Source of the DNA: Parasedimentitalea maritima | Lineage (GTDB): Bacteria; Pseudomonadota; Alphaproteobacteria; Rhodobacterales; Rhodobacteraceae | Assembly: GCF_005771405.1 (NCBI RefSeq) | Contig: NZ_VAUA01000002.1 | Span: 248,001 to 312,000 of the forward strand | Reading direction: 5' to 3' | DNA: 64,000 nt | Shown: positions 6,164 through 25,543 of the stretch, in pieces | Numbering within the stretch: the first letter of the stretch is position 1 | How the letters are laid out: every line of letters begins with the position of its first letter | The notes under the pieces: model-generated | The model's database searches: none | What the model saw: only the letters and a program-made list of their open reading frames with translations | What the model was told of the DNA's origin: nothing | Made by a program: the position numbers and the translations under genes

Positions 6164-6237
6164 CTCAGTTTCCGAAAACTCTGTAAACTGAGAGAACGTG
6201 TAGGCCAAGCTTATAGCATCGTCCACCACATGAGGGG

Positions 6238-6320
6238 AGCGCTTGACCTTGGGGAGGTGCTAAGCGCCTTCCCATTTTGCTGAAAGCAAACCATTTGTTT
6301 GACGGGAAGGTCAGGCGCGG
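6238..6320 (-). repeat. Nested palindromic repeat, intergenic copy behind tmoW
   Basis: On the minus strand it reads CGCGCCTGACCTTCCC, a variable 28-nt centre, then GGGAAGGCGCTTAGCACC and a tail AGGTCAAGCGCT. It is imperfectly self-complementary (GCGCCTGACCTT at one end against AAGGTCAAGCGC at the other). A second copy lies inside bioD at 14261-14316, with 17/17 and 32/36 identical bases in the two arms. Next to it (6319-6335) is a GGCCCGGC-GAT-GCCGGGCC-type hairpin. It may cap the tmo transcript. Confidence 0.85.
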
Positions 6321-6351
6321 CCCGGCGATGCCGGGCCAAACCAAGTTTTGG

Positions 6352-12259: not shown

Positions 12260-12877
12260 TCAAGACAATAACTCCTGCCAATTTGAAAAATGTCCGAATG
12301 GAGCATGAGGAGCGGAAACCTGTCGGGACCATCCGTCTGGCCAAGCACGTTTTTGATTGGCCGTTGGAAAAATCTTGTCGGCGTCGCTGATCCAGACAAG
12401 ATCAAACTCTATCCCCTGCGCATCGCCACGGGCTTCAATTTCAGACAATTCTTCGCGACGGGCAACGCAGTCAATCGGAACATTTGGCTGACGTTCGTTG
12501 AAAGCACGGGCCAGGAACAGCTGGTAGGACTCCTGACTTAAGGTTTCGATTGTCTTGCTCATAGCCAGAGGCGGCACGCCAGTCATACGGTCAACCGGCG
12601 TCAAAGTACCATTCACAGCAACCTTGTGGTCAAAAGGATCGGCGCGTCCCTGCTGCCAATGGGCATAAGACACTACACCAAAGGACCAAGCGACCAGGTT
12701 GATCCTGTCGTATGCGGACAGGTCCGGCAGTTCGGCATTAAGGTCACGAAAGTCGCTGGCAAAGAGAACGTCGTATGCGCCGGTCAGGTGGTCGAACACT
12801 TGCGAACCAACCGCCCAGCCACCAAAGATGACAATGGCTTCGGACTCGTGCTCTCTCTTTAACCAGCGGAAATCCAT
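12260..12877 (-). CDS. bioG: Pimeloyl-[ACP] methyl ester esterase BioG
   Basis: 205 residues of the BioG (DUF452) alpha/beta-hydrolase family, which cleaves the pimeloyl-ACP methyl ester to end the BioC detour. The N-terminal FGGWAVGSQVFDHL is characteristic. The nucleophile Ser65 lies in LVAWSFGVVSY, and His196 in PFGHFSNW is a likely catalytic base. Its ATG overlaps the bioA stop by one base (TAATG). BioG replaces BioH in this genome segment. Confidence 0.9.
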   Translation of the reverse strand: MDFRWLKREHESEAIVIFGGWAVGSQVFDHLTGAYDVLFASDFRDLNAELPDLSAYDRINLVAWSFGVVSYAHWQQGRADPFDHKVAVNGTLTPVDRMTGVPPLAMSKTIETLSQESYQLFLARAFNERQPNVPIDCVARREELSEIEARGDAQGIEFDLVWISDADKIFPTANQKRAWPDGWSRQVSAPHAPFGHFSNWQELLS

Positions 12878-14175
12878 TACAGTTCTCGTGCCAGTCGCAA
12901 CATGCCGCCGGTGATCTGGGTCAACTGGTCGGGCGTGGTGATAAAGGGTGGCATGGTATAGATATTTTTGCCAAAGGGGCGCAAGAACACGCCCATCTCA
13001 CGGGCCAAACCATGGGCCTGATCGGCCGAAACACGGTGTTTCATCTCAATCACCCCAATTGCCCCCAGAACCCTGACATCCGCCACATTGGGTAGAGCTT
13101 GCGCAGGGGCCAGCTCGGTCACCATCTGATCCGCAATGCCAGAAACGGTTGCGCGCGTGTCCTGTTCGGTCAGCAGTTCCAGCGAGGCCAGTGCTGCAAC
13201 GCAGGCCAGTGGGTTGGCCATATAGGTGGGGCCATGCATGAAAATACCCGGATTGCCGCCGCCGATACCTTCTGCCACGCGGTCATTAGTCATTGTGCAG
13301 GCGAACGAGATATGACCTGCAGTCAGCCCCTTGCCTAGGCTGATGATATCCGGCTCGATGGTACAGAAATCGGTGGCGAACATCTCACCCGTGCGGACAA
13401 AACCAGTGGCGATCTCGTCAAAGATCAACAGGATACCCAGCTCATCGCAGATCGCGCGGGCCTGATTGAGGTATTCCGGGTGATAGAAGTACATCCCGCC
13501 AGTGCCTTGCACCACGGGTTCGAGGATGAACCCCGCAATCTTGTCCTTGTTCGTTACAAGCAGGCTCCGCAGATCTGCCAAACCATTTTTCGCCGGATCA
13601 TCATTCCAATTTTCGTTCAGGCGGATCGGTGGACGGTTGACAAAATGCTGCACACTTAGCGCACCCTGGAACAGGTGGTGCATGCCGGTGTCAGGGTCAC
13701 AGACGCTCATCGCCTTCCAAGTGTCGCCGTGATATCCGGAACGTACGGTAGCAAACTGAGATCGTCCCTCGAACCCCATAGCATGTTGATATTGCAGGGC
13801 CATTTTCATCGCCACCTCAACCGACACCGAGCCGCTGTCACAATAGAAGATACGCGTCAGGCTCTCTGGCGTAATCTCCAGCAGTTTGCGACCAAGGTTG
13901 ATTGCCGGGTCATGGGTCAACCCCCCGAACATCACATGCGGCAGCCGGTCCAGCTGATCGTGCATCGCCCGGGTAACCCGTGGGTTACGGTGCCCATGCA
14001 TCATGCACCACCAGGACGACATCGCGTCGATCAATTGGCAGCCGTCATCCAGTGACAGGTGAACACCCTGCGACTCTTTCACCACAAAGGTCGGCCCCGG
14101 TTGCGTGACGTTAGTATAGGGATGCCAGAGATGCTGCTGGTCGAATTCCAGCTGGGTTAGGTCAGATGCGCTCAT
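12877..14175 (-). CDS. bioA: Adenosylmethionine-8-amino-7-oxononanoate aminotransferase BioA
   Basis: 432 residues, a class III PLP aminotransferase that uses AdoMet as amino donor to make 7,8-diaminopelargonate. Landmarks are HLWHPYTNV at the N-terminus, SSWWCMMHGHRNP, LIFDEIATGFVRTG before the PLP-stacking region, the PLP lysine in ISLGKGLTAG, and HGPTYMANPLACVAA. Length is normal for BioA. It overlaps bioD upstream by 4 nt and bioG downstream by 1 nt. Confidence 0.95.
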   Translation of the reverse strand: MSASDLTQLEFDQQHLWHPYTNVTQPGPTFVVKESQGVHLSLDDGCQLIDAMSSWWCMMHGHRNPRVTRAMHDQLDRLPHVMFGGLTHDPAINLGRKLLEITPESLTRIFYCDSGSVSVEVAMKMALQYQHAMGFEGRSQFATVRSGYHGDTWKAMSVCDPDTGMHHLFQGALSVQHFVNRPPIRLNENWNDDPAKNGLADLRSLLVTNKDKIAGFILEPVVQGTGGMYFYHPEYLNQARAICDELGILLIFDEIATGFVRTGEMFATDFCTIEPDIISLGKGLTAGHISFACTMTNDRVAEGIGGGNPGIFMHGPTYMANPLACVAALASLELLTEQDTRATVSGIADQMVTELAPAQALPNVADVRVLGAIGVIEMKHRVSADQAHGLAREMGVFLRPFGKNIYTMPPFITTPDQLTQITGGMLRLAREL

Positions 14176-14885
14176 GGCAGGATCGCCTTTTTGATCGTGT
14201 CGAGGTCGATGTGTTTGGCGAAGGCTTGATGCAGTTCTTCAGACCGGCCGCTAGGCTGGTCCGCGCCTGACCTTCCCCCTGGGAAGGCGCTTTGCACCTC
14301 TCCAAGATCAGGCGCTTCTGTTGCGTTGTTCAATCCCTCGATCATCGGTAAGCGTCCCAGATTCGCGACTTTGCCGAATTGGCAAATGGTCTCTTCTACC
14401 GCGTCTTCTGCCTCACCAATAAAGGCTACGCCGATCACGTCGCAGCCCCCGCCACGAAGGGCCTGCAAGGACAGCAAAGTGTGGTTGATCGTGCCCAATT
14501 GTGTCCGGGCACATAAGATCACCGGAGCCCCCCAACGGGTAAAGAGATCCAAGTACAAAATCTCGCGGTTCAACGGGACCATTAGCCCCCCTGCCCCTTC
14601 AGCCACGAGAACTCCGTCTACCTTCGGCAAGTCCAGCGTAGCAGGATCAATCTCAACACCTTCGGCCTCGGCTGACAGATGGGGAGAGGCTGGCAATTGC
14701 AGTAAATAACCTTCGGGAAGAATGGGTCGGCCGGACAGGCGGGCAACGATTTGACTGTCGGTTTCCTCTTCTTGACCGGATTGTACCGGTTTCCAATAGG
14801 TGGCGTTGAGAGCGGCGGTCAGGCCCGCCGAAAACACTGTTTTACCGATCTCGGTATCGGTGCCTGTGACAACAATAGCGCTCAT
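14172..14885 (-). CDS. bioD: Dethiobiotin synthetase BioD with an in-frame repeat insertion
   Basis: 237 residues. It closes the ureido ring of dethiobiotin from diaminopelargonate, CO2 and ATP. The P-loop variant VTGTDTEIGKTV (about 5-16), the substrate lysine region YWKPVQSG, and VAEGAGGLMVPLN are all present. After RLPMIEGLNNAT the usual family end is interrupted by about 22 extra residues, of which APDLGEVQSAFPGGRSGA is translated from a palindromic DNA repeat (14261-14316). The normal C-terminus ELHQAFAKHIDL then resumes, so the enzyme is probably functional with an enlarged loop. It overlaps bioF and bioA by 4 nt each. Confidence 0.94.
   Translation of the reverse strand: MSAIVVTGTDTEIGKTVFSAGLTAALNATYWKPVQSGQEEETDSQIVARLSGRPILPEGYLLQLPASPHLSAEAEGVEIDPATLDLPKVDGVLVAEGAGGLMVPLNREILYLDLFTRWGAPVILCARTQLGTINHTLLSLQALRGGGCDVIGVAFIGEAEDAVEETICQFGKVANLGRLPMIEGLNNATEAPDLGEVQSAFPGGRSGADQPSGRSEELHQAFAKHIDLDTIKKAILP
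14261..14316 (+). repeat. Palindromic repeat element inside bioD
   Basis: 56 bp, CGCGCCTGACCTTCCC, a 3-nt centre, GGGAAGGCGCTTTGCACC, ending AAGATCAGGCGCT. The ends are inverted repeats of one another (GCGCCTGA), with a nested CTTCCC/GGGAAG. It is the same element as the intergenic copy at 6238-6320, but with a 3-nt instead of a 28-nt centre. It is read in frame on the minus strand as part of BioD. Confidence 0.88.
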
Positions 14886-16024
14886 GTCGCGGCCTCCAGT
14901 TCCTCGGCGAGATCAGCGAAAAGAGCTGAAATCACCTGCTTTGACGTGTTCAATGTCACCGAAATTCGCAGCCGTGAAGTACGGCGCGGTACAGTGGGGG
15001 GGCGGATTCCGCGAATGTCATAGCCGCGGTCCTGCAGAGCGTGGGCTATTGCCATGGTGCGTTTGTCGTCACCGATGATAATCGGCAGGATCTGACTTTG
15101 AAACCCGCTGAGGCCACAGTGCGTTTCAGCCTCGCTATGAGCATGATGGATTGCGCTCCACAGCTGATCCTGACGCATGGGATTGTGCAACAGTTCTGAC
15201 AAAGCGGCGCGCACTAAGGCCGCATTCAGAGGTGATGGTGCTGTTGCATAAATAAAAGCGCGTGCTTTGTTGATCAGGGTTTCGATCAGCGCTGAGGCGC
15301 CGCAGATCAAGGCGCCCGATGCCCCAAGTGCCTTGCCACAGGTGTGCAAAGACAGGACGTTTGGTGAATGTGCCACTTTGTGGCCCAAGCCTCGCCCCAG
15401 GTCACCAAACACACCGGTCGAATGGGCTTCGTCTAACACCAACACTGCGCCCACCCGGGTCGCCAAATCTGCAAGCGCCGCCACAGGTGCACAGTCGCCA
15501 TCCATCGAATAGACCGCTTCAACCGCGATCCAGACTTGCCCGGTGCCACCGTTGGCGCGCCATTTTGCAATTTCAGCCTCGGCAGCAGCGACATCATTAT
15601 GGGCGAAACTGCGGGATTGCGCCCGACCCAGCCGCATTCCATCATGGGCGCTGGCATGAATCAAATCATCATGCAGGACCAGATCGCCGTGCTGCGGTAG
15701 TGTCGAGAAGATTGCCAGATTAGCCTGGAACCCACCGCCCATGAACAAGGCGGCCTGCGTGCCAAAGAAACTTGCCGCCTCGGTTTCCAATAGTTGGTGT
15801 TCGTCTGCATTACCACGCAACAGGCGTGAGCCGCCTGCCCCAACAGGTACTCCACGTGCAAGCGCAGCGCTGGCGGCGTCGCGCAGCAAATCCGACCCGG
15901 CCAGCCCGAGGTAGTCGTTTGACGCAAAATCCTGCCCAGCGCGGGGCATCAGACTGCGATAGCGGCCCCGCGACCTGAGCGCATCCAGCGCCCTTTGATG
16001 GCGCGGGAAAGCGCCCGTGCTCAT
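14882..16024 (-). CDS. bioF: 8-amino-7-oxononanoate synthase BioF
   Basis: 380 residues, a PLP enzyme of the alpha-oxoamine synthase family that condenses pimeloyl-ACP (or -CoA) with alanine. Landmarks are [43 protein letters not shown] (PLP-nitrogen Asp and adjacent His), and the PLP lysine in [11 protein letters not shown]. Length is normal. The ATG overlaps the bioB stop and the stop overlaps bioD, each by 4 nt, in keeping with translational coupling through the operon. Confidence 0.95.
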
Positions 16025-16998
16025 TTAGATCCGTCGCAGCCCACCGCCATGGGAGAAATTCCCAGACGGGCAAACAGCGCACTGTCTTTGTCTTCTTCGG
16101 GATTGTCAGCGGTCAGCAGGGTTTCCCCTACAAAGATCGAGTTGGCCCCAGCAAAGAAACACATGGCCTGCATCTCGTCACTCATATCGGTGCGTCCTGC
16201 CGACAGGCGCACATGCGACTTTGGCATCAGGATACGGGCTAAGGCTACAGTGCGGACAAATTCGATCGGGTCCAGCTTGGCCACGTCGGCCAGCGGCGTG
16301 TCAGCAATTGGGATCAACATGTTGACTGGAACCGAATCCGGGTGTTCTTCGAGTGTGGCAAGGGCCAGCATCATGTCGATACGGTCCATCTGCTGCTCGC
16401 CCATGCCAACGATCCCACCAGCACAGACCTTGATACCGGCCTCGCGTACTTTATTCAGGGTGTCGATGCGGTCGGCAAAGGTACGGGTTGTAATGATTTC
16501 CGAGTAGTAGCGCTCAGAGGTGTCGATGTTGTGGTTGTAATAATCCAGACCGGAATCGCGCAGACGGAACACTTGTTCTTCGTCCAGCATACCCAGTGTC
16601 ATGCAGGTTTCCATGCCCAGATCTTTGACACCTTTGACCATCGCCTCTAGCGCGGCCATGTCGCGATCTTTGGGCGAGCGCCAAGCTGCGCCCATGCAAT
16701 AGCGTGTCGCGCCGCCCTCTTTGGCCTTACGGGCTTCAGATATTACCCGTTCGACTTCGATGAGTTTGCTGGCCGACAATTGCGCGCCATTGCGGGCCGA
16801 CTGCGAGCAATAAGCGCAATCCTCGGCGCAGCCACCAGTCTTAATGCTGAGCAATTTCGATTTCTGAACCTGATTGGGGTCAAAATGCTGACGGTGCACA
16901 GTCTGCGCCTGAAACAGCAAATCCATGAAAGGCAGATTGTAAATCGCTTCGGCTTGCTCACGTGTCCAGTCGTTACGGATAGGGCTTGCGTCCAACAT
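16021..16998 (-). CDS. bioB: Biotin synthase BioB
   Basis: 325 residues, a radical-SAM enzyme that inserts sulfur into dethiobiotin. The radical-SAM cluster motif [11 protein letters not shown] lies near residue 53. [12 protein letters not shown], the [12 protein letters not shown] loop and the arginine in [11 protein letters not shown] (ligand of the auxiliary 2Fe-2S cluster in this family) are also visible. The ATG at 16998 has GGGAG 6-8 nt upstream; the longer frame to 17055 would run across both BioR-like boxes and is rejected. It is the first gene of bioBFDAGC. Confidence 0.96.
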
Positions 16999-17017
16999 GT
17001 GATCTCCCAAGAGGAAA

Positions 17018-17027
17018 TTATAGATAA
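17018..17027 (-). promoter_or_regulatory. BioR-type operator, proximal box
   Basis: TTATAGATAA, a perfect match to the BioR (GntR family) consensus TTATMKATAA known from alphaproteobacterial biotin genes. It lies 20-29 nt upstream of the bioB start codon. BioR would repress the operon when biotin is sufficient. The bioR gene is not in this window. Confidence 0.88.
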
Positions 17028-17059
17028 TTTTCGCGCCAGACCATCCCGGCTGCATCGGT

Positions 17060-25126: not shown

Positions 25127-25226
25127 CACACCGAAGCAAAAACGGTCGGTCCAAAGAATTTTCGCTGCCATGCATTTTTTACTTGCGGTGCGCATCGGGA
25201 ATTACTAATACCCGCTGACACTAAGT

Positions 25227-25301
25227 GGCCCGTTCGTCTATCGGTTAGGACGCCAGGTTTTCAACCTGGAAAGACGAGTTCGATTCTCGTACGGGCTGCC
25301 A
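25227..25301 (+). tRNA. tRNA-Glu (TTC), copy 1
   Basis: 75 nt. Acceptor stem GGCCCGT/ACGGGCT (closing G-U), discriminator G, encoded CCA. Anticodon stem CCAGG/CCTGG with the loop TTTTCAA giving anticodon TTC; T-loop TTCGATT between ACGAG and CTCGT. Identical to copy 2. Confidence 0.95.
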
Positions 25302-25468
25302 CATCCCTTCCACTGAAGTACTAAAACGCCGCCCTTGGACGGTTAAGTTATTGTTATTTGTCAAAAGCTTGCCTGAGTTTCACTGGGTGAGAAATTATTG
25401 CACTTTTTAGAAAATATCCACTTGCGTCCCGGAAGCGGGTTAATTAGATACCGCTTCAAGCACTAAGT

Positions 25469-25543
25469 GGCCCGTTCGTCTATCGGTTAGGACGCCAGGT
25501 TTTCAACCTGGAAAGACGAGTTCGATTCTCGTACGGGCTGCCA
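25469..25543 (+). tRNA. tRNA-Glu (TTC), copy 2
   Basis: Base-for-base identical to copy 1. The identity extends 8 nt upstream (CACTAAGT), giving 83-bp direct repeats at 25219-25301 and 25461-25543 with different spacer sequence. Either a tandem duplication or a gene pair kept identical by conversion. Confidence 0.95.

Follow-up and report, generated by a model that had tools for sequence, protein, structure and literature searches.

A dispersed palindromic element lying in frame within bioD of Parasedimentitalea maritima, and its relatives in Rhodobacteraceae genomes

Results

The bio operon and the element in bioD

The window, by which we mean the whole stretch of 64,000 nucleotides of Parasedimentitalea maritima DNA that was analysed, contains a bio operon with bioB, bioF, bioD, bioA and further genes, recognised as ORFs, of which BioD alone is backed by Pfam. 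The bioD gene, coding for a dethiobiotin synthetase of 237 residues, lies on the minus strand (14172..14885; AAA_26, E = 1.4e-57, residues 3-188), with bioF and bioB upstream (14882..17055) and bioA as the next gene (12877..14175), all on the same strand and named by reading of the ORFs. Near the 3' end of bioD lies a complete palindromic element, matched on the minus strand by our covariance model R1 at 14238..14320 (87.3 bits, E = 2.3e-16; the bioD copy was itself among the 20 host copies used to build the model). Read along that strand, it extends from about 14320 to 14238 and is composed of a 12-bp outer stem enclosing an inner hairpin, followed by a terminal third hairpin. The arms of the outer stem, at 14263..14274 and 14304..14315, are indicated both by the predicted fold and by pairing over 49 copies, and the terminal hairpin (14242..14261) by its sequence and fold. 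Folded as RNA, the element reaches -45.2 kcal/mol, with a z score of -4.8.

A preliminary description of this DNA had reported a 56-bp nested palindrome at 14261-14316 in bioD. Its sequence and frame are as claimed, and a recount of the arm bases shared with the other copy in the window gave the same 32/36 and 17/17. The palindrome is thus real, but these limits are too short, as they leave out the terminal hairpin except for its last base. The other copy, which has a long centre, lies on the plus strand at 6234..6340 (model R1, 81.9 bits); a 22-nt arm is enough to locate it with 3 mismatches, and gave 0 matches in 100 shuffles. In the protein the element corresponds to residues ~190-216, read as APDLGEVQSAFPGGRSGA..., and the 237-residue ORF runs through it with the frame kept, as had been described. 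The window also holds two identical 83-nt copies of another sequence, at 25219-25301 and 25461-25543, 242 nt apart, which resemble duplicated tRNA genes.

Copy number and distribution

A lack of other genomic copies beyond chance similarity would have refuted the preliminary description, and many were found. A BLAST search of the host genome returned 43 matches at E<=10 and 27 at E<=0.01, some of them two pieces of one copy, with a best E value of 6.9e-19 between the bioD element and other host copies. The alignment and covariance model built from 20 host copies found 35 matches in the host at E<=0.01, and between 29 and 63 in each of the eight genomes of the genus (G000 to G007, G000 being the host). 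The repeat was matched in at least 103 of 295 genomes of the family (E<=1e-4), a lower bound, as 15 candidates per genome were scored in this survey. A peptide profile of the element had matches in 113 of the 295 genomes, many of them weak, and 20 places with long frames were then retrieved. Of 190 genomes sampled across the class, 2 were matched, namely the host and another member of the same family; among 20 listed of the 188 unmatched genomes, one belonged to this family and 19 to others.

Matches are also carried by plasmids of Leisingera, Phaeobacter, Pseudosulfitobacter and others. On plasmid pP11_e of Phaeobacter gallaeciensis (L247, 1505-1741), a repeat between rfbB and rfbD is overlapped by an annotated hypothetical protein, which may be a spurious gene call. 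A search of 13 loci with copies against Rfam 15 (E<=1) gave no match on the element, and two matches elsewhere, both in locus L002 and away from it. Phage records searched with one copy as query gave no match.

Anatomy and pairing

By reading, the consensus is AGGGC[A/C]GCGCCTGACCTTGGGGAGGTGCAAAGCGCCTTCCC, a centre, GGGAAGGTCAGGCGC, and then a variable GCCCGG...CCGGGC hairpin. The centre is either short or a second palindrome of ~29 nt, so that the element measures ~80 or 110 nt. Other genera commonly carry a second subfamily, CCCTGGGTGGG...CCCTCCC...GGGAGGG. The borders are sharp, with few biased bases past them, in 137 copies, of which 111 had the terminal hairpin.

Over 49 copies, in an alignment that was fitted to the structure, standard pairs occupy 95.6% of the pair cells (0/500 shuffles as high), and double changes number 143 against 42.7 in shuffles (0/500 as high). 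A MAFFT alignment of the 20 host copies backs the pairing in part: 89.1% of cells are paired (0/500 shuffles), 17 cells show double changes (7/500) and the covariation score is 0/500, while shuffles were as high in 141/500 cases for the number of pairs with double changes and in 78/500 for pair types. Stops are absent from 45, 45, 38, 30, 24 and 16 of the 49 copies in the six possible frames, four of which are commonly open.

Genomic context

Most of the copies looked at are intergenic, many of them just past gene ends. By crude ORF calls on 137 non-random copies, orthologues included, 66 lie between tandem genes, 26 between convergent and 5 between divergent ones, 9 at an edge and 31 'inside an ORF', the last class being unreliable. 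The tandem copies lie at a median of 22.5 nt past the stop of the upstream gene. In the host, among 30 loci retrieved and the part of their ORFs that was tested, the bioD copy is the only one confirmed in a recognised gene; in G005, two copies in recognised genes were found among 30 loci examined of 63 matches. Many copies share orthologous intergenic places across the genus.

bioD in the genus and outside

All eight members of the genus have the element, or a trace of it, in bioD, in frame through to the conserved C-terminus: it is intact in six species and an in-frame remnant in two. G000, G001, G005 and G006 carry the standard intact element, G003 the long-centre form and G007 a copy of another subfamily, while that of G004 is shortened and that of G002, whose bioD contig contains ambiguous bases, has nearly vanished. 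The terminal hairpin is much alike in G000, G001, G005 and G006, and partly so in G003 and G004. By BioD, the named close relatives are Zongyanglinia huanghaiensis (97%) and Parasedimentitalea denitrificans (89%).

Of 54 BioD loci found, 36 from relatives outside the genus (L035 to L070, with L071 to L084 left out) were compared. The comparison of BioD lengths proposed in the preliminary description revealed element-free alleles: 33 of the 36 proteins have 197-213 residues and are insert-free by length and alignment, so the outcome in which every relative would carry the same residues did not occur. The three longer ones are L035 (234 residues), L038 (233) and L043 (215). In L035, an uncultured Roseobacter, the gene has its own copy, an exact 81-bp insert relative to its sister L052, between GGCGGC and GCAACC and at the same place and in the same frame as the insert of the genus. 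This junction, the one clean empty site, shows no target duplication. In L038 and L043 the additional residues may represent old remnants; the covariance model found nothing on L043. The record of L038 is titled Nocardioides marinus, and its BioD groups with Roseobacteraceae; the genome is probably mislabelled.

In a tree of the BioD core, L035 groups with three element-free rows at a support of 99/96, and the genus forms a separate clade (96/95). The simplest history is therefore one of two gains, the first dating to the ancestor of the genus or earlier and the other belonging to a different lineage; a single old gain followed by several losses may be the alternative.

The BioD protein

An AlphaFold2 model built with 16 sequences (pTM 0.83) has a fold that matches solved dethiobiotin synthetases. 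Among stretches of at least three residues, only 187-211 falls below a pLDDT of 50, and it covers most of the insert. Judging from the open frame, translation would turn the insert into an additional floppy or disordered loop. For the BioD core, w is 0.04-0.13 in 19 of 21 pairs, which denotes purifying selection, with two pairs incomputable and synonymous sites near saturation in many. The other seven BioD matches in the host genome cover the insert region alone, so that a single BioD gene was found, which probably works. The proteins that carry such inserts would tolerate them.

In-frame copies in other genes

Copies of the repeat lie between genes as well as in frame within unrelated ones, as a protein-coding palindromic element does; besides bioD, in-frame copies were found in a peptidase gene, in xdhC and in a YjeF gene, which supports the earlier suggestion that the element is able to enter genes. 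Element-free alleles in close relatives were found for bioD, the peptidase gene and xdhC. The peptidase is phage-like (Pfam NlpC_P60, 6.5e-5, just over the cut-off; PHROG minor tail, 4.1e-9), and we take it to be a gene-transfer-agent peptidase. Its gene holds a full copy in G005, one of the eight species, with nearly the same peptide as in bioD; a clear 3' remnant is present in G002 and weaker ones in G004 and G006, and G000, G001, G003 and G007 show no trace. Four element copies lie within ~11 kb around this gene in G005 (contig C2, 67954-78957, partly covered by L167).

In xdhC of Leisingera plasmids the element is antisense to the gene, and the insert adds 38 residues, ~30 nt of it being non-element. 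Among ten aligned alleles, the insert is present in the four from L. aquaemixtae R2C4 and M597 and from L. caerulea S122 and M561 (in M561 it is 6 bp shorter and in frame). It is absent from the remaining six, those of L. caerulea S141 and S216 together with L271, L272, L273 and L275. Its presence thus differs between strains of one named species, Leisingera caerulea. The ~30 nt adjoining the element in xdhC of L246, L268, L269 and L274 are absent from the element-free alleles and unlike element sequence.

A further copy lies in the linker of a bifunctional YjeF_N/Carb_kinase protein of G159. It uses the frame that is open in just 16 of 49 copies. The linker also varies in relatives, which makes this case less clean than the other three. 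The frames used differ among the element-carrying genes. Long ORFs over elements were mostly unsupported as genes: 9 of 10 in one set had no Pfam family, and of nine tested beside xdhC, eight were without domains and in one the element was flanked by domains on either side. Some ORFs over elements have a domain solely downstream, and there the element perhaps lies ahead of the true start.

Synonymous divergence of the bioD insert

A useless insert is expected to accumulate synonymous changes at the rate of the gene that carries it. Over the 24 insert codons, the pooled synonymous divergence was 0.164 in five of the eight genomes of the genus, and each of 157 overlapping 24-codon windows of the core was higher (0.455-0.753). 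The remnants of G002 and G004 and the G007 copy, which is of another subfamily, were unalignable there and left out, a choice that favours conserved copies. Some pairs also show slow change in the C-terminal tail of bioD beyond the insert (pS 0.00-0.50).

Discussion

We consider it probable that the insert in bioD belongs to a dispersed family of structured palindromic elements, copies of which sometimes enter genes in frame and survive there as a translated, disordered peptide. The interpretation given in the preliminary description is supported. An ordinary lineage-specific loop resembling intergenic DNA by chance could be defended by the extra residues that L038 and L043 have in the same loop, but E values down to 6.9e-19 to other genomic copies and the nearly identical peptide in the unrelated peptidase make it exceedingly improbable.

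Rickettsia is the best-known source of in-frame palindromic repeats. The element behaves like the Rickettsia palindromic elements (RPEs), which are described as small palindromic repeats lying in frame in unrelated genes (PMC10969869, PMC3733652), ~150 bp long and nearly half of them in genes (PMC10969869). The likeness that had been proposed to RPEs stands at the level of behaviour; the present element differs in its occurrence in Rhodobacteraceae, its high GC content, its length of 80-110 nt, its terminal hairpin and its few copies in genes. It also resembles REP and BIME sequences in being palindromic, multi-copy and mostly intergenic near gene ends, as REPs are portrayed in PMC12306157, but it is longer (80-110 nt against the 20-40 bp given in PMC3733652), has some copies inside genes, and its host has no Y1 transposase. 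In the border profile (137 copies, 111 at the 3' side), the foot of the palindrome shows AGGGC and CCGGGC, and neither a GTAG nor a CGTC tag. ERIC, RUP, NEMIS and other small MITE-like repeats, presented in PMC2759123 as small dispersed sequences with open frames within genes, are similar in these respects. The present element may differ from them, as its only clean empty site shows no target duplication and a search with PF01797 found no parent transposon. Among the open-access literature matches listed, none reports such an in-frame element in Rhodobacteraceae.

The insert changes more slowly at synonymous sites than its gene, and we infer that either its structure is selected or its copies are homogenised by copying between repeats. 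The former could mean that it is kept as a hairpin in the bio mRNA with a regulatory or RNA-stability role, the peptide being a by-product. The divergence of 0.164 against 0.455-0.753 in the 157 core windows, the conserved pairing and the position of copies close behind genes (median 22.5 nt in 66 tandem cases, by crude gene calls) agree with such a role, which is nevertheless unlikely to be the explanation, as most of the element is lost in G004 and G002, the C-terminal tail of bioD is slow too in some pairs and most outside relatives do without the insert. Gene conversion among the many repeats, rather than selection, is a possible cause that we hold only tentatively. At one orthologous intergenic place (the L011 group), different subfamilies and forms are found in different species at the same point, which would favour copying or re-insertion, and the bioD site itself holds another subfamily in G007 and the long form in G003. 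Such swaps could equally be new insertions, however, and as the terminal hairpin is common to most bioD copies (alike in G000, G001, G005 and G006, partly in G003 and G004), any conversion would be partial and copying limited.

The history of the bioD site allows a similar choice. Several independent insertions at a hot spot, instead of one ancestral insertion in the genus and one elsewhere, are suggested by L035, inserted at the same place and frame yet in a separate supported clade, and by the presence of another subfamily in G007. We regard this as plausible, if somewhat doubtful, since the terminal-hairpin sequence shared by most copies of the genus is what one insertion predicts, and one old gain with several losses may also account for the distribution. 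A wider reading, to which we give slightly less than an even chance, is that marine Alphaproteobacteria harbour a family-wide structured repeat which enters genes in frame time and again and, once within the reading frame, stays under nucleotide-level control, by structure selection or copying between repeats. The sequence of a peptide in a core enzyme would then be set by selfish DNA and not by the protein; here the bioD site would have been entered more than once.

The most likely course of events, in our opinion, starts from a family of structured elements of ~80 or 110 nt that is present across Rhodobacteraceae/Roseobacteraceae, chiefly between genes and in a REP-like manner. An occasional copy would land in a gene and most such events would be lost; with four of six frames commonly open, a frame-keeping insert in a loop or linker could survive. 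bioD would have been entered in or before the genus ancestor and a second time in another lineage, and the insert of the genus would later have changed form or subfamily, or shrunk to in-frame remnants. Movement would be rare, through a trans-acting factor acting on the folded strand; that the folded single strand is the substrate of a mobilising factor is our guess. The many intergenic copies at orthologous places across the genus suggest that movement may be slow.

The element had been called mobile, to which its dispersal, its presence and absence and one clean empty site lend weight; mobility is inferred from these, no transposition machinery having been identified. It is probably non-autonomous. 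The Y1 transposase family is the partner of REP elements. Its domain, PF01797, was matched in four of the eight genomes of the genus and was absent from the other four, including the host, for which it is ruled out as mobiliser; no parent transposon was found by this search. The bacterial family that hosts the element is large and mostly marine, and offers strain differences in xdhC of Leisingera caerulea and a decay series in bioD; the cost, tolerance and movement of in-frame inserts thereby become testable in laboratory strains.

Empty sites between genes were seen at the place of the L008 copy, which is missing in all six relatives retrieved, and at that of the L022 copy, missing in G001, the gaps being too divergent between species for the junction to be read. 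Other intergenic sites among those listed were occupied, had remnants or were too diverged, and the sequences at other junctions were too diverged or complex for a target duplication to be read. In the six relatives that lack the L008 copy (L145-L150), a short terminator-like hairpin can be seen by eye at that place, as if the element stood in for a terminator there.
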